Assembly (NCBI GenBank): GCA_015709595.1
Contig: CP054178.1
Coordinates: forward strand, 3,229,205 to 3,293,204
Direction of reading: 5' to 3'
From: Phycisphaeraceae bacterium
Lineage (GTDB): Bacteria > Planctomycetota > Phycisphaerae > Phycisphaerales > SM1A02
Length of the DNA stretch: 64,000 nucleotides
The notes beneath the pieces are model-generated. The model was not told the DNA's origin, did not search any database, and was given only the letters and a program-made list of their open reading frames with translations. The position numbers and the translations under genes were made by a program. Shown piece after piece: positions 13,975 to 25,392 of this stretch (its first letter is position 1; the number at the start of each line of letters is the position of its first letter).

Positions 13975-13986
13975 GTTTTACATAAC
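13975..13986. repeat. 12-bp direct repeat, copy 2 (GTTTTACATAAC)
   Basis: This is identical to 13280-13291. Together with the next 16 bases it resembles a Xer/dif site layout: an 11-bp arm (GTTTTACATAA), a 6-bp centre (CATATA) and a second arm (TTCTCGGACTT). The first arm matches the reverse complement of the known dif arm TTATGTTAAAT at 9 of 11 positions by eye. Confidence 0.5.
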
Positions 13987-14002
13987 ATATATTCTCGGAC
14001 TT
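13986..14002. repeat. candidate attL of element 1
   Basis: CATATATTCTCGGACTT matches CATATATTATAGGACTT at 25376-25392 at 15 of 17 positions, in direct orientation. The two sites enclose the integrase and the virion-type genes. Typical attachment cores are exact, so only the first eight bases (CATATATT) may be the crossover region. Confidence 0.45.
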
Positions 14003-14238
14003 CAAGCGGTGCGTGATCGCAAGGGCGCGTAGGTGGTGGGATGCCGCCCGCACCGCATTGTGTTGCGCGCTGACGCCGAGGCCGCCGCTCGTAATCCAGT
14101 AACCGTTTCGCACCGAGCGCCAGCCCCGGGTGCTCGTGTGCATCGCACCACGGGGCGACATCCTGATCCGCGTGAACCACCCGACGAGGTTCCAGCCTGA
14201 GACGGTGGCACGCGATCAATCGCACGGAGGCGATTGTC

Positions 14239-15300
14239 ATGACGGTAGCAGCAACGCCCACGCCGGTCAAGAGGTTCAGCCGTTCCGCCCGGCACCTGAT
14301 GCGGTGCCTGATTGCGATCGAAGAAGCTGCGATCCGCGTCGGCAACATCGACGAACAAGGGCGCCCCATCGTCACTCCAAGACAGGCCACCATCGGCGCG
14401 AGGATCGGCGTTTCCGCTCGCCAGGTCCGCAACATCCGCGCCGAGTGCATCGCTGCGGGATGGCTCGCGGTCCAGAAAACCGGCCGCGCCTTGCGGTGGT
14501 TCATCCTGGTGGCGAGGTCATTTTTTACACGTGACCGTTTCCGCTCAGTTTCCGCTCGCGCGCCGCGCCGTATAGAGAGCGCGCGTGCGTCGGATTCCAG
14601 AGAGCACAGAGAGACAAAACCCAATGGGCCTGAACGGCCAATGGGCTCGTGCCGACTGAGTGTGACGAAGACCGACCTGTCGGACCCGCGCCGCCTGCGC
14701 GAGATCGCCGAGACCGCCTCGCGCGACATCGGGCGGCACGGTCGGCTCGTCGCTCCAGGCCGAGACGGACTGCGGAAGATCCTGGAGATGGCGGCGCACG
14801 CACTGCACACCCGCGGCATCAGGGACGCGGTGCGCGCGTTCTGCGCCATGCTCTGGCACCCCGAGAAACGCCGCACCATCACGCTCGCCGACGAGGACCG
14901 CGCCACGGCGATGATGGCCGCGATGGATCGGGAGCGCTATCCGCGCGAAGCGCCCGAGCCAGCCACGCCTCAGCCCAAAACGCCCGAGGAATCCGACGCC
15001 TCGATCGTGCGGAAGGCGGTGCAGCGCGCCACGAGCAGACCACGCCAACCAGTCGATGCACGTACAGCACTGCGCAGTTTCCGAGAAGCTCTCACACAAC
15101 ATCACGGCTGGACCCCCGACCGATGGAAACGTGCCATCGAAGCCGCGGGGTTCGGCTCGCTCGTCACAGACACCGGAGGCCCAGAACATGGCGACCGCAC
15201 GCGCGAAGTACCAACTCCCCTGCCACCGCCCGCCGCACACGCCGAGGCGAGCCACAAGGCCCGCAGCCCCGCGCCAGCTGGGGCTGTTTGCCCCCGCTAA
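14239..15300 (+). CDS. helix-turn-helix protein, possible replication initiator of element 1
   Basis: This 353-residue protein is the first gene of the cassette, with GGAGG 9 nt before its ATG. The N-terminal 90 residues look like a winged-helix domain (TPRQATIGARIGVSARQVRNIRAECIAAGWL at about 46-76, then a beta hairpin RALRWFILV), a layout seen in plasmid and phage replication initiators and in regulators. A basic, Ser/Arg-rich linker follows (about 95-140), then a helical domain and a proline-rich tail. Three copies of GTTTCCGCTC lie inside the gene. Its function as initiator is inferred from domain style and position. It overlaps the next small gene by 113 nt. Confidence 0.7.
   Translation: MTVAATPTPVKRFSRSARHLMRCLIAIEEAAIRVGNIDEQGRPIVTPRQATIGARIGVSARQVRNIRAECIAAGWLAVQKTGRALRWFILVARSFFTRDRFRSVSARAPRRIESARASDSREHRETKPNGPERPMGSCRLSVTKTDLSDPRRLREIAETASRDIGRHGRLVAPGRDGLRKILEMAAHALHTRGIRDAVRAFCAMLWHPEKRRTITLADEDRATAMMAAMDRERYPREAPEPATPQPKTPEESDASIVRKAVQRATSRPRQPVDARTALRSFREALTQHHGWTPDRWKRAIEAAGFGSLVTDTGGPEHGDRTREVPTPLPPPAAHAEASHKARSPAPAGAVCPR
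14410..14557 (+). repeat. three GTTTCCGCTC copies inside the first element gene
   Basis: GTTTCCGCTC occurs at 14410-14419, 14537-14546 and 14548-14557, the last two separated by one base. The pair follows a T-run and a CACGTG-like sequence (14521-14533). Repeats inside or beside a replication-type gene may be initiator binding sites, but three 10-mers are weak evidence. Confidence 0.35.
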
Positions 15301-15364
15301 CAGCGCACTGACCGCCGATCCTGCACGCCCCCAACCGCCACAAAACCGGAGGACGAACCCGTGA
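15188..15364 (+). CDS. small basic proline-rich protein, overlapping frame
   Basis: This 58-residue frame starts inside the end of the previous gene with a good ribosome binding site (GGAGG 8 nt before the ATG). It ends in TGA overlapping the GTG start of the next gene (GTGA). Those two features suggest real, coupled translation despite the 113-nt overlap. The product is rich in Arg and Pro, beginning MATARAKYQLPCHRPPHTP, and has no recognisable domain. Confidence 0.45.
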   Translation: MATARAKYQLPCHRPPHTPRRATRPAAPRQLGLFAPANSALTADPARPQPPQNRRTNP

Positions 15365-16599
15365 CCACGACGACACCCCCCAACACAACACCGAAGCCCG
15401 ACGCGATCGACGAACTCCTTTCGACGCTCGCCGGAGGCGAACACAGCTTGAAGGTCTACCGCGTCGGTCCGCAGGGACTCGAAATCTGCCAGACGTACAC
15501 GGTGGACACGTTCTCCGAGGAGGCCGTGGCACGCACCTGGGGCAGCGGGGCGTATGAGCTCCACATCTACGAGCGCGGCAAGCGCGGGATGCAGGCGAAG
15601 CGCCCGTTCCGAGTCGCCGCGCCACCTGGTGAGTCCTCGCAGTCCATCGCGCCGCCGCCAAGGCCCGCGCCGCAGAACGCGCCCAGCGCCTACACGATGC
15701 CCGCCGAGGCGGGCGTGTTCGGCATGTTGATGCAGATGCAGCAGCAGCAGTTCCAGATGCAATTGGAAGCGGCGAAGGCGGACCGCGCGATGTTCCTGTC
15801 TCTCATCGAGAAGATCGGGCAGAAGTCGGACACCATGCCCGAGATCAACGCAATGGAGCAGATGATGCGGTTCGCCGACAAGCTCACACGCAACCAGGAC
15901 CGCGACGGAGACAGCGCCGACGCCCTGGTCAAGATGGTGCCCGGCATCATCGAGGCGATGAACAAGCCCAGGCAGACGCTGCCACCTTCGATCGCGGTCA
16001 TGTTAGACCATCAGCGACAGCGCCAGCGCCTTCCGCAGCTCACGCGCAGCGGCGCGCCCACGACAAACGGTGCGATGCCCGGACCGCGTCGATTCGAAAA
16101 CGGCCAGCCGGTGGAGCCAGCGCCCGCCGCCACCGAGGGCGCGCCGAGCGCGGCACTCCCCGACTCCGTTCAGACGCTCATCCAGGTGCTGCGCATCGCC
16201 GTGACTCAGCACGATCCCGACCCGGCGACGTACAGCAACGTGGTGATCGACCTGCTCGGCGAGGACACCATCCAGGCGGCGATCGACGGCTACGACGAGG
16301 GGCATTTCGCGGGAATGCTCGGCAACCTGGACCCGGCCCTGGCACAGCGCCGCGACTTCCTGCTGGCCGTGGAGCGGGAGGTCCGCGCCGCATTTCTTGA
16401 CTCCGAGGGCGATCCAGCCGATACTACTTCCGGAGTGAGTCCGGCGAGTGCATCGAGCCCCCCCATCGATGCCGCTGACGCTTCGCACGCATCCCAACCA
16501 GCCGCCCAGCCGACAACTGACGGCGACGCTGCCGCTGCCAAGCGATCCCGACCAAAGGGTGCTCGCGACGTTGCACATAATGCGCGCAGTCGTGCGTGA
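15361..16599 (+). CDS. hypothetical protein with Gln/Met-rich helical middle
   Basis: I do not recognise this 412-residue protein. The N terminus is a small alpha/beta region (HSLKVYRVGPQGLEICQTY, EAVARTWGSGAYELHIYERG). A proline-rich linker leads into a long helix (about 118-175, FGMLMQMQQQQFQMQLEAAK) with coiled-coil character. After a second linker, a helical domain (TLIQVLRIAVTQHDPDPATY to RRDFLLAVEREVRAAFLD) precedes an Ala/Ser/Pro-rich tail. No ATPase motifs are present. It starts with GTG after GGAGG, overlaps the small gene before it, and its 3' end overlaps the transglutaminase-like gene. A scaffolding or assembly role is conceivable but unproven. Confidence 0.8.
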   Translation: MTTTTPPNTTPKPDAIDELLSTLAGGEHSLKVYRVGPQGLEICQTYTVDTFSEEAVARTWGSGAYELHIYERGKRGMQAKRPFRVAAPPGESSQSIAPPPRPAPQNAPSAYTMPAEAGVFGMLMQMQQQQFQMQLEAAKADRAMFLSLIEKIGQKSDTMPEINAMEQMMRFADKLTRNQDRDGDSADALVKMVPGIIEAMNKPRQTLPPSIAVMLDHQRQRQRLPQLTRSGAPTTNGAMPGPRRFENGQPVEPAPAATEGAPSAALPDSVQTLIQVLRIAVTQHDPDPATYSNVVIDLLGEDTIQAAIDGYDEGHFAGMLGNLDPALAQRRDFLLAVEREVRAAFLDSEGDPADTTSGVSPASASSPPIDAADASHASQPAAQPTTDGDAAAAKRSRPKGARDVAHNARSRA

Positions 16600-17023
16600 T
16601 GCCCTGCACTCGCCTCTACTCCACTCGCTCGCCTCGCGCATTTCTTCACACGTTCACAGCCGCGACCCGATCGACCACTTGCGCGCCGTCGCGCGGTTCC
16701 TGGGGGCGGCTGTTTCCTTCAAGGCCGATCCCTTCGGCGTTGAACATCTGCGCACACCCGAGCAGCTGATCGAGGAGATCGAGCAGCACGGCAACGTCGC
16801 CGCCGACTGCGATGACCTGGCCATGCTCGCCGCGGCGCTCATCCGGTCGATCGGATTGGAGCCATACTTCGTCGTGGCCGGCCGCACCCAGCGGCTCACG
16901 CATGTCTTCCCCGCCGCGCGCGTGCGCGGCGGCGCGATCATCCCGATGGACGTGCAGGAAGGCCTGCCGGTCGGACGGTGGCCGGAGGGCGTCGCGCGTC
17001 AAGTCGTATTCAGGGCCATCTGA
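16469..17023 (+). CDS. transglutaminase-like cysteine protease/peptidase
   Basis: The 184-residue product has a transglutaminase-fold core with a complete Cys-His-Asp triad in order: Cys in GNVAADCDDLAMLAAALIR, His in QRLTHVFPAAR and Asp in IIPMDVQEG. In the family this fold serves as peptidase, amidase or cross-linking enzyme; in a phage cassette it could process virion proteins or attack peptidoglycan peptides. The start is uncertain: ATG 16469 overlaps the previous gene by 131 nt, and ATG 16580 would shorten it to 147 residues while keeping the core. The next gene starts 2 nt after the stop. Confidence 0.78.
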   Translation: MPLTLRTHPNQPPSRQLTATLPLPSDPDQRVLATLHIMRAVVRDALHSPLLHSLASRISSHVHSRDPIDHLRAVARFLGAAVSFKADPFGVEHLRTPEQLIEEIEQHGNVAADCDDLAMLAAALIRSIGLEPYFVVAGRTQRLTHVFPAARVRGGAIIPMDVQEGLPVGRWPEGVARQVVFRAI

Positions 17024-17025
17024 CC

Positions 17026-17838
17026 ATGCTCAACTACCTCGGCACGTGCCCCAAGTCGATGCAGAAGCCGCCCACGGCATCCACCCCAGAACAGGTCGCG
17101 CGATCGATCGAGCATCTGACGGTCGAGGCCGAACGTGCGGGCGTTTCACCAGCGCGAGTCGCCGCCGCCCAGCGGATCGCGCTGCTGCAACGCCAACAGC
17201 AACGGCGCGCCGCGGCCCAGCGGACACCCGTCCGCGCCGCGGTGGCCCCGCGGCCGCGCGTGGCGGCACGGCCGCGCGTCGCCTCGCCCAGGCGTCCTGC
17301 CGCCAACGTCAACCTCGCGCCGCTCCGGCAGCGAATCGCCAACGCGGCCAAAATTCTCGCGGGCATCCCCTCGCGGCTCCAGAAGGCGACGCCAGCGCAA
17401 AAAACGAAGCTGCTGGACACGCAGCGGAAGATGCAGGACTTGCTCAGACGACTCCGCGCTCAGCTGGCCAATGCGCAGCGGCGCGGCGGAGGCCTCAGCG
17501 GCTGGTACGACGAGGAGATCGGTTTCATCGATTCGATCTTTGGGGGCATCAGCAACATCTTCGCCGCGAGGGAAGCGCGGAAGGCCGCGGAGAAACAGGC
17601 GAAGGCCGCGGAGCTGCAAGCCCGGCAGGACCGGACGCAAGCCATCTTCGATGCGCGCCGCGAGGCCGATGATCTGCGCATGCAGGTCGCCAAACTCTCG
17701 GCCCTGCCGACGCAGGTGCTGATCCCACCCGCGCCGCCCGCTCCCCCGCCGCCCGCGGCCCCCGCGATGCCGGGATGGGTGATGCCCGTCGCCATCGGCG
17801 GCGCGGCCCTGCTGCTGCTTCCCCGACTTCTCAAATGA
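17026..17838 (+). CDS. coiled-coil protein with C-terminal membrane anchor
   Basis: This 270-residue protein is unrecognised. Residues 20-110 are Arg/Ala/Gln-rich, and about 110-150 is helical (QRIANAAKILAGIPSRLQKA). A Gly-rich turn follows with the motif GGGLSGWYDEEIGFIDSIFGGISNIF, then a charged coiled coil (AREARKAAEKQAKAAELQARQ), a proline-rich spacer and a single C-terminal membrane segment (MPVAIGGAALLLLPRLL). A tail-anchored coiled-coil architecture suits a minor membrane protein of a lipid-containing virion. The stop overlaps the next ATG (ATGA). Confidence 0.72.
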   Translation: MLNYLGTCPKSMQKPPTASTPEQVARSIEHLTVEAERAGVSPARVAAAQRIALLQRQQQRRAAAQRTPVRAAVAPRPRVAARPRVASPRRPAANVNLAPLRQRIANAAKILAGIPSRLQKATPAQKTKLLDTQRKMQDLLRRLRAQLANAQRRGGGLSGWYDEEIGFIDSIFGGISNIFAAREARKAAEKQAKAAELQARQDRTQAIFDARREADDLRMQVAKLSALPTQVLIPPAPPAPPPPAAPAMPGWVMPVAIGGAALLLLPRLLK

Positions 17839-18449
17839 CCGCCTTCCCCAGCCATATCGACGAGTACGGAGAGGCGGTCACGCCGCCGCTGCGCACGCCC
17901 ACGGAGTACGCCGTGCGCGCGGGCTCCCTGCTGGTCGATTGGATCAAGAGCGCCCAGGCGAAGATCAAGGAGTTCCAGGACGCGGCGGCGCGGGACGGCC
18001 GCGCCCTGTCGCTGCCCGAGCGATCGCTCATCAACGCGCTCGGTGAGTTCATCATCTTCGCCCAGCGCGTCAATGAGCTGCAGCGCGAGGCCCTGGTGAA
18101 GGCCGGCGGCGGCACGGTGTTTCCCGACGACGTGGATGCACGCATCCAGCAGATGCCGGTAATCCTGCGACACATGCCTCCGGGCACCTACTACGAGCAG
18201 CTGACGGAACGCGAGCAGGAGCTGCGGCAGCTGTACAACGTGGTGCGCACGTTCCTGCCTGAGCTCTCCGCGCAGTCGTGGACGATTGCCCGCCAGGTCG
18301 CCCAGGACTGGGATCTGACGGCGAAGTCGTGGACGCCCGTCATCGACGGCGCGATGAGCCAGGGCGGCATCCTGGAGCGGCTGGCGGGCTCGGCTGGACT
18401 GATCGCCTTGGCGGTCCTGGCGTTTTTCGCGTGGAGGGCGCTCAAGTGA
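17835..18449 (+). CDS. helical protein with C-terminal membrane anchor
   Basis: The 204-residue product is mostly alpha-helical (AGSLLVDWIKSAQAKIKEFQDAA, NALGEFIIFAQRVNELQREAL, ELRQLYNVVRTFLPEL). It ends with one membrane segment (SAGLIALAVLAFFAWRALK). No family is recognised. Like the gene before it, it places a soluble domain on a C-terminal anchor, so the two may work as a pair in a virion membrane. It starts by ATGA overlap and ends by GTGA overlap, within a strictly coupled gene run. Confidence 0.72.
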   Translation: MTAFPSHIDEYGEAVTPPLRTPTEYAVRAGSLLVDWIKSAQAKIKEFQDAAARDGRALSLPERSLINALGEFIIFAQRVNELQREALVKAGGGTVFPDDVDARIQQMPVILRHMPPGTYYEQLTEREQELRQLYNVVRTFLPELSAQSWTIARQVAQDWDLTAKSWTPVIDGAMSQGGILERLAGSAGLIALAVLAFFAWRALK

Positions 18450-18649
18450 GCAAGCGCACCACCGACAACGGCACCCAGCTGAGCGTCCGCCCCATCGGGC
18501 TGGCCAAGGTCATCGAGTACGTCAAAAACGGCAAGACGTTCCGACACAAGTTCACCAGCGCAAAGTCGGTGCTGTACGCCACGACCGACCGCTCCCACCT
18601 GGTCATCCCGGCCCGCACCAGCAGCCGCGGCGAAATCGAGGACGACTGA
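18446..18649 (+). CDS. small hypothetical protein
   Basis: The 67-residue protein starts at a GTG overlapping the previous stop. It is basic, with a beta-type pattern (LSVRPIGLAKVIEYVKNGKTFRH, KSVLYATTDRSHLVIPAR) and an acidic last few residues. It has no membrane segment and matches no family I know. The tight coupling to its neighbours supports it as a real gene. Confidence 0.6.
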   Translation: MSKRTTDNGTQLSVRPIGLAKVIEYVKNGKTFRHKFTSAKSVLYATTDRSHLVIPARTSSRGEIEDD

Positions 18650-18651
18650 AC

Positions 18652-19299
18652 ATGGCGACGACGCTCCTCCTCAGCAACCCGACCAAGCGACGGCGACGAC
18701 GGCGAAAGACCGCCCGGAGCCGAGCCACCAAGCCACGCACACCGCGGCGCGTCCGCCGCGCTCCCAGGAGAATCACCAGCATGGCACGCAAGCGACGACG
18801 AACACGGCGCGCAGCGCCAACCGTGCGCAGGCGACGGAGCCGCCGAGCTTCCGCGCCGCGCGGCAAGATCGACATGCAGTTCCTCATGCAGGGGGCAGGC
18901 ATCGCGGGCGGCGCCCTGGTGACCGATTTCCTGATCGGGAAAATCCCCATCGCGGCCCTCCAGACATCGCCCTGGGCGCGCGTCGCGGGAAAGGTGGGCA
19001 TCGCCATCGCGGCCAAGATGCTGCTGCACCGCAGCGCGCCGAAGATCGCCAACGCGCTGGCGCTCGGCGCGATCGCGTCCACGACTCTGGATGCGCTCCG
19101 CGCCGCGAATCTCCAGCTGCCGGGCGGCGGCCTCAGCGGATACGACATCGACCCCGACCTGGCCGGATTGATGGGGTACGACCCCGTCACCGGCGAGTTC
19201 ATCGAGGACGAGGATCCCGCCGCGCTGCTCGGCTGCGACAACATGGCCGGGTACGACTCGGAGCCGGGCCTGAATTTCACGGTGGTTGAGGCCGCGTAA
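18652..19299 (+). CDS. highly basic membrane protein, candidate virion core/DNA-binding protein
   Basis: The first 70 of 215 residues hold a dense run of Arg and Lys (KRRRRRRKTARSRATKPR, RKRRRTRRAAP). A hydrophobic region follows with two probable membrane helices (QGAGIAGGALVTDFLIGK and ARVAGKVGIAIAAKMLL), and the C terminus is acidic and glycine-rich (DLAGLMGYDPVTGEFIEDED). Nucleic-acid-binding basic tails on membrane proteins are common in virus cores, where they tether the genome to the inner membrane. That role is inference. It lies 2 nt after the previous stop and before the first candidate capsid gene. Confidence 0.7.
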   Translation: MATTLLLSNPTKRRRRRRKTARSRATKPRTPRRVRRAPRRITSMARKRRRTRRAAPTVRRRRSRRASAPRGKIDMQFLMQGAGIAGGALVTDFLIGKIPIAALQTSPWARVAGKVGIAIAAKMLLHRSAPKIANALALGAIASTTLDALRAANLQLPGGGLSGYDIDPDLAGLMGYDPVTGEFIEDEDPAALLGCDNMAGYDSEPGLNFTVVEAA

Positions 19300-19314
19300 C
19301 GGCGCGATTGCCAT

Positions 19315-19357
19315 GCCTGGGCGGCGCGGGATCTCCCCGGACCGCGACGCCCCAGGC
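19315..19357 (+). promoter_or_regulatory. hairpin upstream of the first candidate capsid gene
   Basis: GCCTGGGCG (19315-19323) pairs with CGCCCCAGGC (19348-19357) around a GC-rich loop. No T-run follows, so it is not a standard terminator. It may stabilise the capsid mRNA or attenuate transcription before the 19400 gene. Confidence 0.4.
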
Positions 19358-19399
19358 CTTCCCGATCCCACTCACACACAATCCCCCGAAAGGTGAACC

Positions 19400-20227
19400 A
19401 TGTCACGCATCTCAGCAGTCAGAGACATCGTGTGCCGACCGGCACGCGCGGGCAACAACGGATTCCCGATGGATGAGCTCGTGCGGCAGCGCATGCGCCA
19501 GATCGCAGGCGGCATCCCGGGCGACGGCGACGCCACGCTCACCACGCCGCAGAGTTACTACCACCGGGTCAACTATCCCACCGCGGGCAGCACGCAATTC
19601 CGATTCTTCAACGAACCGCGAGCCCGCGGCATCACCAACCTGGACACGCCCAATCAGTTCCCAGCCAACTACGGCTTCCTGCTGCGCAGCATCAGCTTCG
19701 ACTTCCTGCCGGCCTTCGATCGCCAGGGCGCTCACTGCAGCGCCACGGTGGCCAACTCGTCCCTCTCGCTGTCGGCGATCGCCGCGGCGACGGCGGACCA
19801 GCTGGCGCGGCCCTGGCGGTGGAATGAGAAGGTGCGCGAGCTGATGAGCCAGGGCGTCGTCACGTTCAAAGTGGGACAGCGCGACATCTTCGAGGTGTTC
19901 GGGCTCACCAACTTCCCCAGCGGCAAGGGCGTCGTGTCCAACCCCGGCGTGTCCAACATGCTCGACACCAGCGCCGCCGCCAACTCCCTGGGCACCATGA
20001 TGAACCAGGTGACCAACGGCGCGCCTGTGTTCTGCAACCGCTGGGAGTTCTACGAGCCGTTCCCCATCGCGCCCAACCAGACCTTCGAGCTCACGGTGGA
20101 CTACCTCACCGCCGTGTCGTTCTCCGAGGCCGGCCGCGGACCGATGGAAGGCGACGCGGGCGCGACGGCGGGCGTTCTCATGTGCGAAATGCTCGGTCAA
20201 CTGGTCATCCCGGCCGCGCAGGGATGA
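19400..20227 (+). CDS. candidate major capsid protein of element 1
   Basis: No named family is recognised in this 275-residue protein. The sequence is beta-rich with short hydrophobic strands and many Asn/Pro/Gly turns. Indicative segments are YGFLLRSISFDFLPAF, GVVTFKVGQRDIFEVFGLTNF, WEFYEPFPIAPNQTFELTV and AGVLMCEMLGQLVIPA. The pattern of a strand ending in an aromatic, then PIAPNQTFEL, resembles edge strands of jelly-roll coat proteins. Length is close to the 269-residue PM2 coat protein, but no similarity is claimed. It has its own upstream hairpin and AAAGGTG ribosome site, as expected for a highly expressed structural gene. Confidence 0.68.
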   Translation: MSRISAVRDIVCRPARAGNNGFPMDELVRQRMRQIAGGIPGDGDATLTTPQSYYHRVNYPTAGSTQFRFFNEPRARGITNLDTPNQFPANYGFLLRSISFDFLPAFDRQGAHCSATVANSSLSLSAIAAATADQLARPWRWNEKVRELMSQGVVTFKVGQRDIFEVFGLTNFPSGKGVVSNPGVSNMLDTSAAANSLGTMMNQVTNGAPVFCNRWEFYEPFPIAPNQTFELTVDYLTAVSFSEAGRGPMEGDAGATAGVLMCEMLGQLVIPAAQG

Positions 20228-20244
20228 TCGCGGGGCCTCTCTCT

Positions 20245-20270
20245 CCTGGCGAGCGGAGACGCCCGCCAGG
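20245..20270 (+). promoter_or_regulatory. hairpin downstream of the first candidate capsid gene
   Basis: CCTGGCG (20245-20251) and CGCCAGG (20264-20270) form a perfect 7-bp stem. Together with the hairpin at 19315 it brackets the 19400 gene, which would suit mRNA protection of an abundant structural transcript. Confidence 0.35.
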
Positions 20271-20306
20271 GCATTCTGACTCACACCCCCAACGAAGGAC
20301 ACCCAC

Positions 20307-20507
20307 ATGGCGAAGAATCGAGCCAGCAGCAAGCCCGCCGCCTCCAACGACTCCGGGTGCGATGACGACATCATCGCGGCGATCGTCAGCAACCCGAACC
20401 TGGTGCGCGTGGACGCATCGGGCGGCGACTTGAAGCCGGTCCTCACGTGCAAGCCAGAAGCGCTGCGGGCGCTCATCGGCGAGCTGAAGGCCGCGCTGCA
20501 GGATTGA
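20307..20507 (+). CDS. small hypothetical protein
   Basis: This 66-residue protein has a Ser/Lys/Ala-rich N terminus followed by a short alpha/beta segment (DDDIIAAIVSNPNLVRVD, KPEALRALIGELKAALQD). An AGGA ribosome binding site lies before the ATG. It sits between two candidate capsid genes. I do not recognise it, and its size would suit a minor virion or assembly protein. Confidence 0.6.
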   Translation: MAKNRASSKPAASNDSGCDDDIIAAIVSNPNLVRVDASGGDLKPVLTCKPEALRALIGELKAALQD

Positions 20508-20530
20508 CCGTTCCGGCGCACTGCGGCCCG

Positions 20531-20579
20531 GAACTGCGGTTGCTCGTGGCACTTTTTTCCAACTTCTCGCGCCACGGGA
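20531..20579. repeat. dispersed ~47-bp imperfect repeat, copy A
   Basis: The segment matches 22891-22939 at about 85% of positions with two single-base gaps, sharing TTGCTCGT-type, GCACTTTTT and ACTTCT-CGCG-CACGGG blocks. Both copies are intergenic and in the same orientation, and they bracket the genes at 20604-22791. Function is unknown; promoter or packaging/processing signals are possible. Confidence 0.6.
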
Positions 20580-20603
20580 TAGGGCGAAGGCAAGGAAAGC
20601 ATT

Positions 20604-21146
20604 ATGCGAAGCTGCATCAATCCAGTCGTGGCTGATGTGCTCGGCGAGCTGGGCGGCCAGGCGGGGAACCCGGTCACGAACGCCTACTACTTCACGTACA
20701 CCAGCGGGCCAATCCTTGCGATCACCGTCGGCCAGGTCGCCAGCCGCTCAATCAACATCACCAGCGGCTACGACTTCATCGTGCAGGGCATCGCGGCCCG
20801 GGCGCGCTTCAACGCGGCCAACACGCCCGCGGGCACCGTGCCCCAGGCGAAGATTCCGCGCATCGTGCGCGACACGCTCGCGGGGCAGACCAACGCCAAC
20901 CTGGGCATGATCCGCTGGGGCTGGTCGATCGCCAACATGCCCTACCAGAACCAGCGCGTTCCGATGGACCTGACGACGGGCGAGCCGGGTGATCCGTGGT
21001 TCCTGCCCTCCCGCGTCTACGTGCCCGCCAACTCCACCATCCTGATCGAGGTGGAGAACAACCTGCCCGCGATCGGCGGCGTGGCCACGCCGATCATCGA
21101 CGTTGAAGTGCTGTTCCAGGGCATCAATGCAACGCCGAGACGATGA
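20604..21146 (+). CDS. candidate capsid or minor virion protein
   Basis: The protein has 180 residues and a strong beta pattern typical of a single jelly-roll. Segments are ILAITVGQVASRSINITSGYDFIVQGIAA, then WFLPSRVYVPANSTILIEVENN and a final IIDVEVLFQGINATPRR. The YVPANSTILIEV plus V-x-V-x-F-x-G ending is the clearest hint of a coat-type fold. I know no named family for it. AAGGAAAG precedes the ATG, and the stop overlaps the next ATG (ATGA). Lengths of this and the following gene recall the paired coat proteins of some tailless phages, but this is inference. Confidence 0.65.
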   Translation: MRSCINPVVADVLGELGGQAGNPVTNAYYFTYTSGPILAITVGQVASRSINITSGYDFIVQGIAARARFNAANTPAGTVPQAKIPRIVRDTLAGQTNANLGMIRWGWSIANMPYQNQRVPMDLTTGEPGDPWFLPSRVYVPANSTILIEVENNLPAIGGVATPIIDVEVLFQGINATPRR

Positions 21147-21901
21147 GCAAGCACCGAGGCATCTTCCGCGACGGATCGCAGGGGCTCGGCCCTGGCGGCT
21201 ACAACGCCGTCGCGGCGGGCTTTCGCCGCCCCTTGCCCATCGACCCCACGAGCAACCCGCCCACGCACGAGAACCGCGAGACCTACTCACCCCTTACGGA
21301 TCTGTTCCCCGAACTGCTCACGCTCAGCGCGAGCTTCACCAGCGTGCCGGTTCCCGCGGGCACTGTGATCGGTGCGGGGCAGGCGGGATGGTTCGGGCTC
21401 GGCGAATGGACCGCCGGTCAGAACCCGGGACAGGACTTCCAGGTGTTTGGGATCAGCATCGAGAATATCAGCTGCAACCACACGCCCGGCTCCGTGCCGG
21501 GCAATGCCTGGGGGAACGCACGCGGGCTGGGCGCTCAGCTGTGGATCGGCACGAATCTGCCCTCTGTCGTCGGCGCGTGGCGCAGCGGACCAGGGCTGAG
21601 CGGAGGCATCGTGTCAACACTGGAGACGAGCGGCGTCGGATCGCTGGGGCTCATCTACCGGCAGTCGTTCCCGCCTGGCAACGCCAGCGACACCGTGCCG
21701 ATGAAGTTCGTGACGCACAAGCACTTCAGCCCCTTCGTCGATCGCATCCCCCTGGCGACGCAGCTCCAGGCGGCGCTTGTGCTGGACGGTGCCAACGTGA
21801 ATCTGATCGGCGTGGCTGGCGGCACGGTGCAGGGCTGGGCCGACATTCAGATCAACGTCGGCCTGGTGAACAACCCCAACACGTTCCGCGGCAACCGCTA
21901 A
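21143..21901 (+). CDS. candidate capsid or vertex protein
   Basis: This 252-residue protein is translationally coupled to the gene before it. After a 50-residue extended N terminus it is beta-rich: SFTSVPVPAGTVIGAGQAGWF, FQVFGISIENISCNH, SLGLIYRQSFPPG, then LQAALVLDGANVNLIGV and a closing GWADIQINVGLVNNP. It shares general style, not clear sequence, with the genes at 19400 and 20604. An adjacent pair of beta-rich proteins produced in equal amounts fits a two-component capsid, or a coat plus penton. Confidence 0.62.
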   Translation: MSKHRGIFRDGSQGLGPGGYNAVAAGFRRPLPIDPTSNPPTHENRETYSPLTDLFPELLTLSASFTSVPVPAGTVIGAGQAGWFGLGEWTAGQNPGQDFQVFGISIENISCNHTPGSVPGNAWGNARGLGAQLWIGTNLPSVVGAWRSGPGLSGGIVSTLETSGVGSLGLIYRQSFPPGNASDTVPMKFVTHKHFSPFVDRIPLATQLQAALVLDGANVNLIGVAGGTVQGWADIQINVGLVNNPNTFRGNR

Positions 21902-21906
21902 CGGCC

Positions 21907-22791
21907 ATGGCGCGGGTGAACCCCAACGATCCTGCATCCTACGGTCGGCTCGTGGAGCACGTGCTTGACGAGGAACGGCGTCGCCGACGGGCCAGGCCGG
22001 AACATGACCAGGGCGGCGGGATGGCCCCAGGCGGCCACCGCAGCGGCGGAGGAGGCAGCGGCGCGGGTGGAGGCGGCGGAGGCGCTGGCGGGGGTGGAGG
22101 CGGCGGAGGTGGAGGCGGCGGAGGTGGAAGGACGATCGGACGCACTCCCCCACCGCTCGGCCATCCCACGCCCGTCATCGGTGTCGAGCTCGGGCCGATC
22201 GCCGCGGGCTACGTGGACAACAGCCAGAACATCCAGGCGCTGATGCAGGCCAGCCGGTTCCATCCGTTCAGCGCCACCACGGGCACATTCGCGCTGACGG
22301 ATTTCGACGTGCTGCGAGGGACATGGGTACTCAACGCGGGCAATCTGCAAAACTCCGTGCTCGGTGCCGTCGGACCCCCCGATCCGAGGAGCGTCGTCAC
22401 CTACAACGGGTTCACCAGTTACACCGATCTTCATGTCCAGGGCAGCAAGACGACTGTCGGCATCAACACCGCCTGCTGGGTTCTTGCTCGGTATAACCCC
22501 GCCACACAGAACGGCTACGCGGTCAGCGCACAACTCGGAACCACCATCCTCATCCAGCGGATTGATGCGGGGGTGCTGGCCACGCTCAGCACCATCCCTC
22601 AGGCCTTCACCGCGGCGGACACGTTCGGCTGCCGCATCGTTGGCTCAACGATCCAGGCCACTCTGAACGGCGTGGGGATCGGCTCGGCGATCGACGCCAC
22701 CTATGGCGCACCGGCCCGTGCGGGAATGGGTGATGCCAGCTCCACCTTGGCAACGAGAATATGGGACTTCTTCAGCATCACGCCGCCTTGA
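21907..22791 (+). CDS. polyglycine-hinged candidate spike/receptor-binding protein
   Basis: The 294-residue protein has a charged N-terminal helix (YGRLVEHVLDEERRRRRAR), then about 30 residues that are almost all glycine (roughly residues 36-75). A C-terminal beta-rich domain of about 200 residues follows. That domain has a laminin-G/concanavalin-like rhythm (LRGTWVLNAGNLQNSVLG, TDLHVQGSKTTVGINTACWVL, DTFGCRIVGSTIQATLNGV, IWDFFSITPP). An anchor, flexible hinge and carbohydrate-binding-like head is a plausible spike. The glycine tract is coded by GGCGGA-type repeats and could vary in length. An in-frame extension back to 21103 overlaps the previous gene and was not used. Confidence 0.7.
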   Translation: MARVNPNDPASYGRLVEHVLDEERRRRRARPEHDQGGGMAPGGHRSGGGGSGAGGGGGGAGGGGGGGGGGGGGGRTIGRTPPPLGHPTPVIGVELGPIAAGYVDNSQNIQALMQASRFHPFSATTGTFALTDFDVLRGTWVLNAGNLQNSVLGAVGPPDPRSVVTYNGFTSYTDLHVQGSKTTVGINTACWVLARYNPATQNGYAVSAQLGTTILIQRIDAGVLATLSTIPQAFTAADTFGCRIVGSTIQATLNGVGIGSAIDATYGAPARAGMGDASSTLATRIWDFFSITPP

Positions 22792-22890
22792 GTGCGATCG
22801 ATCATCGTCGTGTTCGGCGGTGACGATGCCACCTGAGACCGCGGGCATCGTCGAAACTGACGAGAGTGGCCACCAGCCGCGCCGTCGCGC

Positions 22891-22939
22891 AGAAACGCGG
22901 CTGCTCGTTGCACTTTTTCCCGACTTCTTCGCGCACGGG
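22891..22939. repeat. dispersed ~47-bp imperfect repeat, copy B
   Basis: This is the counterpart of 20531-20579, in the same orientation, lying between the spike candidate and the convergent GIY-YIG gene. It overlaps no coding sequence. The conserved T5-6 run inside it is not preceded by a hairpin. Confidence 0.6.
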
Positions 22940-22955
22940 TGGGGGCAAACGAGCA

Positions 22956-23321
22956 TCAGAATGGCGCGGGCTCATCGTCCGCGGGCACGAGTCGATTGTC
23001 GCGCGGGTCAAGCAGCGCGATCAATCGGTCCTGCTCCGGCTCACTCTCGCACGCGCCGCCGCAGAGAACGCGCACCGCGACTTCCACATCATCGCGCCAG
23101 TAGGTCGGCCCCGCGGTGTTCTGACTGTTGTCCCACGCCTGGAAGTGCCGCGTGATCGTGGCGTAGAGACGCCCCGTGTGCGACTCTCCCACGTACAGGA
23201 CTTCGCGCGATGCTCGATCGCGGATGATGTAGACGCCGCTCTCCCCACGCAGCTCGCGAAGCCACGCGGGGTACGGATCGCCCTTGCTCCCTTCAACGGA
23301 TCGGTAGGTGAGACGTTCCAT
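22956..23321 (-). CDS. GIY-YIG nuclease-domain protein
   Basis: The 121-residue product has the two short motifs of the GIY-YIG fold (SGVYII and VLYVGES, 14 residues apart), then GRLYATITRHFQAW with the conserved Arg and His positions. Such small proteins act as structure- or sequence-specific endonucleases, as homing enzymes or repair nucleases. It is the last gene of a minus-strand operon behind a toxin gene, starting 2 nt after the toxin stop with GAGG 7 nt upstream. Why a nuclease is joined to a toxin-antitoxin pair is unclear; element exclusion or mobility are possibilities. Confidence 0.78.
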   Translation of the reverse strand: MERLTYRSVEGSKGDPYPAWLRELRGESGVYIIRDRASREVLYVGESHTGRLYATITRHFQAWDNSQNTAGPTYWRDDVEVAVRVLCGGACESEPEQDRLIALLDPRDNRLVPADDEPAPF

Positions 23322-23323
23322 CG

Positions 23324-23659
23324 TCAATCCTCATCGTCACGCGGCGGGCGATCGGGGTGAAGAATCCGCTCCACGTCGCGCGCGCCATGAAGGACATGAT
23401 GCACCAGCACCTCGCAGTCCGTCTCTTCGTAGACGACGAGATACCCATGCACGTTGAGGAACCGCACCGGCTGAGTCGTCAGGTCATCTCGGAAGTGACC
23501 AACTCCCGGATTGGCTCCGATGCGCCGAAAGGCCGCGGCGAAACTGGTCTGCACCTTCACCGCTCGATCAAACTCGCCCTGGGACAGGTACCAATCGAGG
23601 ATGCTGTCCACTTCAGCAGCGGCGGCGCGGCTTACGGAGACTGCTTTCACGACTGGCAT
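23324..23659 (-). CDS. ParE/RelE-family toxin
   Basis: This 111-residue protein shows the ParE/RelE pattern: VSRAAAAEVDSILDWYLSQG helix hairpin, AFRRIGANPGVGHFRDDL loop, then PVRFLNVHGYLVVYEET and VLVHHVLHGARDVERIL, ending with the typical basic residues. ParE toxins poison gyrase and RelE toxins cleave mRNA; the sequence alone does not decide. The ATG at 23659 overlaps the antitoxin gene by 47 nt, a normal arrangement for these pairs. Confidence 0.85.
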   Translation of the reverse strand: MPVVKAVSVSRAAAAEVDSILDWYLSQGEFDRAVKVQTSFAAAFRRIGANPGVGHFRDDLTTQPVRFLNVHGYLVVYEETDCEVLVHHVLHGARDVERILHPDRPPRDDED

Positions 23660-23909
23660 TCTGCGCGCGTTTGATCTTCGCTTCAAGCCGCCTCATCAGT
23701 TCTTCGACCGGGATCCCCTCGCCCCGGGCAAACGAAGCCCTCGACTCATCGATCAACCGATTGAGGCGCTCCCGCCCCTTCGCCCAGTTCGTGAGGGCGT
23801 CGCGCACAACCTCCGCTTCGCTCTTGTAGTGCCCGGATGCCATGACCTGGCCGATGTGCCGGACGACCCGAACGGGAAGCGTCACCTGGATGGAGTTGCC
23901 TCGTGCCAT
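23613..23909 (-). CDS. ParD/CopG-type antitoxin
   Basis: The 98-residue protein starts with a ribbon-helix-helix domain (NSIQVTLPVRVVRHIGQVMASGHYKSEAEVVRDALTNW), the DNA-binding part that autorepresses the operon. A charged C-terminal helix follows that would wrap the toxin. It is the first gene of the toxin-antitoxin-nuclease operon. Its start lies 48 bp from the divergent integrase start, so its operator may also influence integrase expression. Confidence 0.87.
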   Translation of the reverse strand: MARGNSIQVTLPVRVVRHIGQVMASGHYKSEAEVVRDALTNWAKGRERLNRLIDESRASFARGEGIPVEELMRRLEAKIKRAQNASRESSLRKPRRRC

Positions 23910-23940
23910 GCTGATAGTCTACCATGCAGGCGAGTCGCGG

Positions 23941-23946
23941 CATAAT
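23941..23946 (+). promoter_or_regulatory. CATAAT -10-like box of the integrase
   Basis: CATAAT lies 10 nt before the ATG at 23957, in the short divergent region between antitoxin and integrase genes. This gives a near-leaderless integrase transcript and places its promoter within reach of the antitoxin's autoregulation. Confidence 0.4.
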
Positions 23947-23956
23947 CCTCATCTTT

Positions 23957-24922
23957 ATGCGAGTGCCACGGATGGCCGACACGCAGCTCCTCATCACCGA
24001 CCCCCTGCATCGGCAGATGATGCGCGCCACGCGGCCCGAGGCCGCGCGGGTCATCTTCGAATGGCTGACGGCGGAAATCCGCAACCCCAACACCCGCGCC
24101 GCCTACTACCGGGCGCTCCAGCAGTGGTCCGAATGGCTGGAGGACCAGGGCGGCACGTTTGAGGCCGCGACGACGCTCCAGGTTGCGTCGTTCATCGAGA
24201 CGCACCGCGGCAGCCTCGCGACGATCAAGCAGCGTCTGGCGGCCATCCGCGGGGCCTACGGGCGACTGACGGAGCGCGGGGTGATCGACGAGAATCCCGC
24301 GCTTCGCGTGCGCGGCCCGCGCTTCAAACGGCTGATCGGTGCGACGACGTGCCTCACGCGCGACGAGGCGACGCGACTGCTCAGCTGCATCGACGGCGAC
24401 ACCGACCGCGACTTGAGGGACCGCGCCGTCATCGCCACCATGCTCTACACGTGGCAGCGCGTGAGCAGCGTCTGCGCGCTCGACCTGGCCGACCTGGTGA
24501 GCGACCAGGGCGTGAAGTTCCTTCGCTTCCAGGTGAAGGGGGGACACGCGCACGCCGTGCCCGTTCACTCGAAATTGCGCGTGGTCCTCGACCGCTGGAT
24601 TGAGCGCCGCGGCGAGTGGGCGGGGCCGCTGTTCGTCGCCACCGACCCGACCAACCTCCGAAAACGCACGTTGACCAGGGCGCGAATGAACCGCGCGATG
24701 GTGGCGAACATCATCCGAACACGTTCCAGGCAGGCGGGCATCGAGACGATCGCCACGCCGCACACGATGCGCGCGACCGCCATCACGAATTACCTTGAAA
24801 ACGGCGGCAATCTGGAGGTTGCCCGCCGCATCGCGCGGCACAAGTCGATCAACACGACCCGGCTCTACGACCGCACCGGGGACGAACTGAAACTGACCGA
24901 GGTCGAGCGGGTCAACATCTAG
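23957..24922 (+). CDS. tyrosine recombinase/integrase of element 1
   Basis: This 321-residue protein has a SAM-like core-binding domain (about 40-110) and a catalytic domain with the full tyrosine recombinase set. These are Arg in WQRVSSVCALDLADL, Lys in RFQVKGGHAHAVPV, His-x-x-Arg in TPHTMRATAITNYL, a second His in RRIARHKSINTTR and the Tyr nucleophile in RLYDRTGDE. It lacks the long N-terminal arm-binding domain of lambda-type integrases and looks closer to compact Xer-like enzymes. This fits the dif-like look of the left end. Starts at 23924, 23957 and 23972 are all possible; 23957 follows the -10-like box. Confidence 0.93.
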   Translation: MRVPRMADTQLLITDPLHRQMMRATRPEAARVIFEWLTAEIRNPNTRAAYYRALQQWSEWLEDQGGTFEAATTLQVASFIETHRGSLATIKQRLAAIRGAYGRLTERGVIDENPALRVRGPRFKRLIGATTCLTRDEATRLLSCIDGDTDRDLRDRAVIATMLYTWQRVSSVCALDLADLVSDQGVKFLRFQVKGGHAHAVPVHSKLRVVLDRWIERRGEWAGPLFVATDPTNLRKRTLTRARMNRAMVANIIRTRSRQAGIETIATPHTMRATAITNYLENGGNLEVARRIARHKSINTTRLYDRTGDELKLTEVERVNI

Positions 24923-24985
24923 TGGTCGATCCACCGTCACCCCCCAACTTGACGGTGGTGGGGCACTTACCGTAGGGTTTTGAAG

Positions 24986-25387
24986 ATGGAACACCTCTCC
25001 CTCCAAGCCGCCGTGCTCCTCAACACAATCCGTATCTCGAATGAAACGATGGGGTCGCCGTGGGATGCGGCACACTTAGATCGCCTCGCCAAGTGCTTCT
25101 ATTGGGCCATGCAGGGGAAGGACCCATCAGAGCAAAGTGACGAGAGCCCCGTTCCCGCCGATGTCTTGGAAGAGTTCCATCGCGCCCTGCGCACGCTCAT
25201 GGCCAGGCGAATGATCGATCCAGTCAAGGCGTTCGGGATCGCCAACTTCGCAAAGGCGGACCGAGCCATCAGGAACGCGCGGTCGATGTATGGAGACTTT
25301 CCACTGCTGGCGGACCCGCCACCGTTGGAGGACATCGCCGGTGAGGTCGCGCGACTCCGAGAATCAGGAACGGATCATATATTATAG
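24986..25387 (+). CDS. hypothetical protein at the right end of element 1
   Basis: This 133-residue protein is unrecognised, helical and neutral (SLQAAVLLNTIRISNETMG, HLDRLAKCFYWAMQGKD, EEFHRALRTLMARRMIDPVKAFG). It is the last gene before the right end, and its stop codon falls inside the candidate attachment repeat, so its final codons come from the attachment site. A TTG at 24980 is an alternative start. Confidence 0.6.
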   Translation: MEHLSLQAAVLLNTIRISNETMGSPWDAAHLDRLAKCFYWAMQGKDPSEQSDESPVPADVLEEFHRALRTLMARRMIDPVKAFGIANFAKADRAIRNARSMYGDFPLLADPPPLEDIAGEVARLRESGTDHIL

Positions 25388-25392
25388 GACTT
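25376..25392. repeat. candidate attR of element 1
   Basis: CATATATTATAGGACTT is the partner of 13986-14002. It overlaps the stop codon of the 24986 gene and lies 36 bp before the end of the convergent ggt gene. Its AT content is exceptional for the surroundings. Confidence 0.45.

Follow-up and report, generated by a model that had tools for sequence, protein, structure and literature searches.

Three conserved beta-rich genes in dif-bounded elements of Phycisphaerales as candidate shell genes of a tail-less virus

Do three neighbouring genes for beta-rich proteins in a planctomycete chromosome encode the parts of a virus shell and, if so, of what kind of virus? The genes lie in a 64,000-nucleotide (nt) stretch, the window, of Phycisphaeraceae bacterium contig CP054178.1 (assembly GCA_015709595.1, positions 3,229,205 to 3,293,204); coordinates below are those of the window, on the forward strand unless stated otherwise. 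An earlier note, made from the letters of the window, had proposed a multi-component capsid, and that proposal holds up in part: two predicted jelly-rolls, capsid-dominated lists of structural neighbours and a gene block conserved in elements bounded by dif-like sites speak for it, whereas every score is modest. We favour, with a probability of roughly 0.6, the reading that the genes belong to a tail-less temperate virus lodged at dif, whose shell consists of separate single-jelly-roll proteins, two or three in number, and which has no packaging ATPase of its own.

The three open reading frames (ORFs) are indeed present as described, at 19400-20227 (275 amino acids, aa), 20604-21146 (180 aa) and 21143-21901 (252 aa), with the peptides quoted from them, and the 180-aa and 252-aa genes are coupled through an ATGA at 21143-21146. 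A plausible, good ribosome site, GAAAGGTGAACC, stands directly before the ATG of the 275-aa gene. The hairpins also credited to this gene are a weak claim, because dinucleotide shuffles fold just as well as the 100 nt ahead of the start codon (z = -0.06; 92 of 200 shuffles equally good), even if a hairpin can be drawn upstream. The richness in Asn, Pro and Gly and the beta bias exceed chance when the proteins are set against 27 host ORFs of the window, selected mechanically by length and codon-position guanine-plus-cytosine content and not from annotation. Asn makes up 6.2, 7.8 and 6.7% of the 275-, 180- and 252-aa proteins, respectively, compared with a host mean of 2.0% and maximum of 4.2% (0 of 27 as high); their summed Asn, Pro and Gly content is reached by 2, 0 and 0 of the host ORFs, and their Chou-Fasman beta-minus-alpha score by 3, 0 and 0. 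As the earlier note also held, the three families share no similarity with one another (profile-profile probabilities of 0.5, 0.1 and 0.2%), and this comparison rules them out as sequence-recognisable paralogues. In all three families, the polar columns that five or more rows conserve are few and do not look catalytic (N71, T79, N80, R146, R161, N206 and N213 in the 275-aa family; T33 in the 180-aa family; T60, D183, K188 and R201 in the 252-aa family), and we rejected an enzyme reading of the proteins on this ground. A hydropathy scan detected no membrane or signal-like segment in any of the three.

Searching 400 genomes of the order with a 252-aa-protein profile of two rows gave six clear carriers, one of them being the genome of the window itself; nine genomes had matched, and three of these (G554, G626 and G084; E-values of 0.002-0.006, internal stops) were dropped as chance. 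Another search gave 2 of 392 genomes, with G268 (E = 0.002, 73 positions) dropped, and the other genome searches, made on overlapping draws (2 of 101, 1 of 392, 4 of 163 and 2 of 397 genomes matching), yielded no additional carriers. One carrier, L003, is contig JAGLTS010000039.1 of a Phycisphaerales metagenome-assembled genome, and locus L002 from genome G062 sits inside it. When 676 ORFs of at least 50 aa, taken in all frames from the six elements and their flanks, were compared all against all with phmmer (single linkage, E < 1e-4), the 275-, 180- and 252-aa families were each found in all six elements, and their order is the same in every one. Identities between the window proteins and their five relatives are 23-33% (275 aa), 14-25% (180 aa) and 26-32% (252 aa); two relatives of the 275-aa protein are just 221 aa long, and the copy in L014 is partial since that contig begins inside the gene. 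A spike-like gene follows the 252-aa gene in five of the six, none being recognised in L014; a transglutaminase-like gene is likewise present in five and a 412-aa gene in four, and an Arg-rich gene stands ahead of the block in four elements by phmmer and in a further one, L015, by position. The block is real and is kept together as a unit in dif-bounded elements, and a single planctomycete order accounts for all the relatives of its three proteins that the searches found.

The whole integrated element of the window, including the block common to the five relatives, spans about 11.4 kb (13976-25392) between a dif-like site and a half-site. The left site (13975-14002, reverse strand) has both a XerC and a XerD arm and is the sole match in the 3.84-Mb genome at up to three mismatches; the right half-site (25376-25392, reverse strand) keeps the XerC arm and the central bases, not the XerD arm, and differs from the left site at 2 of 17 bases. 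Of 101 related genomes, 50 contain the dif-like motif (single in 45, multiple in 5; the other 51 lack a match at two mismatches), a reversed control pattern matches three times in all across the same genomes, and the motif is thus distributed roughly as expected for dif, one per chromosome. L015 shows the same arrangement of full site and half-site around 14.2 kb, and in L016 two dif-like sites, one with a weaker XerD arm, lie 12.0 kb apart; L014, whose contig starts inside the element, has one such site, and L017 has one with no second before the contig end. Gene direction relative to the sites is reversed in the window element. No dif-like site was found on the 10.8-kb contig of L003, which is probably a free circle because its 21-bp ends are identical and an open rep frame continues across the join; it should be noted that these 21 end bases recur once near the contig start. 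In G062, the host of L003, a different contig (G062:C117) bears a dif-like site. Judged by the sites at its ends, the element is integrated at the chromosomal dif site, presumably through recombination there. To the left of the insertions, the hosts of L015 and L017 have homologous genes, which shows that the surroundings of the insertion site are conserved. The window element also has a tyrosine recombinase (integrase) of its own (23924-24922; Pfam Phage_integrase, E = 1.2e-23), although its ends are Xer-type sites.

Viral capsid proteins dominate the structural neighbours of the AlphaFold models made for the 275-aa and 252-aa proteins. The 275-aa model has 10 strands (predicted local distance difference test score, pLDDT, 57.5; predicted template modelling score, pTM, 0.58) and the 252-aa model nine (pLDDT 68.9; pTM 0.69), and because of these strand counts and of alignments to single-barrel chains across the models, each would hold one barrel, which suggests that the two proteins are one jelly-roll each. 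The top VIA rows of the 275-aa model are the coats of PR772 (Z = 8.8, root-mean-square deviation 6.7, 158 residues) and Sulfolobus polyhedral virus 1, SPV1 (Z = 8.7, deviation 3.9, 146 residues); the SPV1 chain, a single barrel of 178 residues, aligns over residues 10-275 of the model. The leading rows also include double-jelly-roll coats of tectiviruses, and HHIV-2, SH1 and HCIV-1 appear at Z = 6.6-6.8. Counted by hand, with many rows repeating the same protein, viral capsid, scaffold, cement, protrusion or turret proteins fill 38 of the 50 rows (vaccinia D13 accounts for 14), phage tail or baseplate parts fill 2 and non-viral proteins 10; for the 252-aa model, where capsids of nanoviruses and satellite viruses lead (Z = 7.2 and 7.0), the same count gives 39 capsid or cement proteins (many of them polyomavirus VP1), 1 baseplate part and 10 non-viral rows. 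In Foldseek, the best PDB match of the 275-aa model is again the SPV1 coat (E = 1.1e-3, TM-score 0.29 by query); 36 BFVD matches pass 0.001, many named as capsid proteins and with low TM-scores, and 181 do so for the 252-aa model. A jelly-roll fold class is probable for both models, and the nearest structural relative may belong to a family outside the fold-search lists. The earlier note had named models with no jelly-roll, or with enzymatic folds and conserved active sites, as what would speak against a capsid; for the two of three folds covered, the models are jelly-rolls, and none of the conserved residue sets looks catalytic.

Several results weigh against a shell of this kind. The models come from six-row alignments of two of the proteins, with no control protein alongside, and their pLDDT values denote moderate confidence; the best VIA scores (Z = 8.8 and 7.2) are near the 7-8 that models lacking a true match typically reach, Foldseek gives low TM-scores, and none of the PDB matches of the 275-aa model passes E = 0.001. 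Pfam and PHROGs leave all three proteins unnamed (one PHROG match at 0.14), and no relative of them was found in the phage, plasmid and viral-contig collections searched. With all six members of each family, PHROGs returned two matches at 0.08-0.09, each to one 275-aa relative, and PDB profile searches with the three proteins returned nothing (best E = 0.22). Neither tblastn of the 275-, 252- and 191-aa proteins (the last being the transglutaminase-like one) against the phage collection nor tblastn of the 252-aa protein against plasmids gave a match; Poriferisphaera phage ZRK32, described from a cultured planctomycete (PMC10945688) and filed under Caudoviricetes in that phage collection, is not among the phage matches of these three proteins. 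The sole viral-contig match is a 54-residue transglutaminase-like stretch in a 169-kb contig (L004), and the viral-contig scans may miss distant relatives because they use short exact peptide patterns. A literature search, with limited coverage of subscription papers, found no description of this virus group.

The element has further genes on both sides of the block. Ahead of it lie genes for a winged-helix replication initiator-like protein of 353 aa (14239-15300; weak PHROG match to a replication protein, E = 4.3e-4), the 412-aa protein (15361-16599), the transglutaminase-like cysteine protein of 191 aa (16448-17023, start uncertain, overlapping the 412-aa gene; sub-threshold Pfam match, E = 0.038), whose Cys121, His152 and Asp168 are also present in its L003 relative, proteins of 286 aa (16978-17838) and 204 aa (17835-18449; 24% identity to the L003 relative), each with a C-terminal transmembrane segment in the hydropathy scan, a 67-aa protein (18446-18649; 37% identity to the L003 relative) and the Arg-rich, possibly genome-binding protein of 215 aa (18652-19299), in which Arg and Lys make up 44% of the first 75 residues. 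The Arg-rich protein and the two transmembrane proteins would fit a membrane-containing virion. Between the 275-aa and 180-aa genes there is a 66-aa ORF (20307-20507), an open frame only, with no relative in the six-element comparison. The block is followed by the gene for a 294-aa protein with a Gly-rich N-terminal half and no Pfam match (21907-22791), a possible spike by its position, and then on the reverse strand by a 123-aa GIY-YIG-like gene (22956-23327), labelled by eye, with relatives in L003 (48% identity) and L017 (sub-threshold GIY-YIG match only), and by a ParE-like toxin and ribbon-helix-helix antitoxin-like pair (23324-23909; ParE_toxin, E = 1.3e-10; RHH_1, E = 0.008, sub-threshold). 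The repeat GCACTTTTTYCCNACTTCT, with flanking bases, occurs before the 180-aa gene (20549-20567) and after the spike-like gene (22910-22928); it matches twice in the window, against 0.02 expected, twice in the host genome and nowhere in the genomes of the five relatives.

Replication genes vary among the elements: L003 also has a winged-helix initiator-like protein (weak PHROG match), L015 has a HUH rolling-circle Rep (Pfam E = 2.3e-11), the only one recognised in the six, L017 and L015 have small winged-helix proteins elsewhere, and no replication gene was assigned in L016. Near the left end of the L015 element, a small protein (L015:19492-19827, reverse strand) has a sub-threshold OB-fold match (E = 0.007) and may bind single-stranded DNA alongside the HUH Rep; after the spike-like gene of the same element, L015:7528-8472 (reverse strand) matches Pfam Glyco_hydro_56 just above the cut-off (E = 4.7e-6) and possibly encodes a polysaccharide-degrading virion enzyme. 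No recognisable packaging ATPase motif is present: a Walker A pattern matches 10 times in the 676 ORFs, and none of these matches was judged a P-loop by its context, Pfam having been run on part of the ORFs, which leaves room for an ATPase without the usual motif. A tailed-phage head was rejected, the scanned ORFs having shown neither a terminase nor a portal nor any comparable gene.

From these observations we infer a particle of the following kind. The 275-aa and 252-aa single jelly-rolls, and probably the 180-aa protein too, would jointly build an icosahedral shell, with coupled translation of the 180/252 pair probably giving matched amounts of the two; the Arg-rich 215-aa protein would bind the genome, the membrane-anchored proteins would line an internal membrane or the vertex, and the 294-aa protein would be the spike. 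Packaging would proceed without an ATPase of the virus's own, and Xer recombination at dif would maintain the element, with a full site left at one end and a half-site at the other. In two-coat viruses, the genes for the smaller and the larger coat are adjacent. Their coat building block is a heterodimer (PMC6414509). The 275-aa protein, whose structural match is the most coat-like of the three, is a candidate major coat here, and the 180-aa and 252-aa proteins may each be a second coat or a penton; yet the coupled 180/252 pair recalls such adjacent two-coat genes.

An unlikely reading has no virus shell at all: the element would be plasmid-like or a satellite, its beta-rich proteins being surface or adhesive proteins or its shell gene set depending on a helper. 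That the three proteins have neither relatives in the viral collections searched nor a recognised virus hallmark would suit this reading, as would the integrase, the toxin-antitoxin pair and the Gly-rich neighbour gene; the lack of membrane or signal-like segments in the three proteins, the dominance of capsid proteins in the fold-search lists and the presence, within one block, of genes for Arg-rich, membrane and spike-like proteins argue against it. Quite improbable is a Finnlakevirus-like phage (the kind of FLiP and PhiCjT23), whose compact double-jelly-roll coat would be the 275-aa protein, with minor vertex proteins in the 180- and 252-aa products. These phages are similarly small, FLiP has no packaging ATPase (PMC7654751), as none was recognised here, PhiCjT23-like prophages are flanked by dif motifs and have a rolling-circle Rep (PMC9719478), and double-jelly-roll coats do stand among the top rows of the 275-aa model. 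Theirs, however, is a one-gene double-jelly-roll coat in Flavobacterium hosts, with single-stranded DNA shown, whereas here the 10-strand model aligns with a single-barrel chain and the 275-aa protein has no phage-collection match. The element would probably fall outside Finnlakeviridae because the one-barrel model and the 221-aa relatives lean against a double jelly-roll. An enlarged Microviridae-like phage, with coat, jelly-roll spike and basic DNA-binding protein, is very improbable indeed: Microviridae have a jelly-roll coat and spike, a basic protein, a HUH Rep and known dif prophages, and the present elements share predicted jelly-roll proteins, a basic protein, dif-like bounds and, in L015, the HUH Rep, but Microviridae genomes are of 4-7 kb and the bounded elements of 11.4, 12.0 and 14.2 kb, the gene set is different, the Rep is recognised in one of six and the phage collection holds no match.

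The favoured reading, a tail-less virus with separate single jelly-rolls, resembles SPV1 by its fold and missing ATPase, and PhiCjT23 by its life style. SPV1 (Portogloboviridae) has a single-jelly-roll coat and no packaging ATPase (PMC8812541); the present elements would be like it in a predicted single-jelly-roll coat, for which SPV1 is the best Foldseek PDB match, and in the lack of a recognised ATPase. SPV1 has an archaeal host, whereas these elements are bacterial, have at least two predicted jelly-roll proteins and measure 10.8-14.2 kb, with no sequence similarity shown. With Helvetiavirae (SNJ1, SH1, HHIV-2, HCIV-1 and P23-77) they would share more than one separate single-jelly-roll shell protein, two vertical coats in that group and here two models of moderate confidence. 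SNJ1 is temperate and circular, replicates with a HUH Rep and encodes a putative packaging ATPase (PMC12642351); none is recognised here, so the elements are not placeable in Helvetiavirae, and SNJ1-like viruses differ further in their genomes of 16-19 kb and in being episomal proviruses, whereas the present ones are mostly dif-bounded. We suggest more tentatively, at somewhat less than even odds, that the elements represent an undescribed bacterial virus family, so far of this planctomycete order only, with three separate single-jelly-roll proteins and ATPase-less packaging, which would be the bacterial counterpart of a putatively ancestral SPV1-like state joined to the dif lysogeny of FLiP-like phages. 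If so, Phycisphaerales would gain a recognisable group of temperate viruses, marked by three linked genes beside dif. It has been proposed (PMC8812541) that two-coat viruses descend from an SPV1-like ancestor that had one single-jelly-roll coat and lacked a packaging ATPase, with FLiP as the corresponding intermediate in the case of the double-jelly-roll viruses; bacterial viruses that combine several separate single jelly-rolls with the lack of an ATPase would fill the missing combination and make this origin scenario testable.

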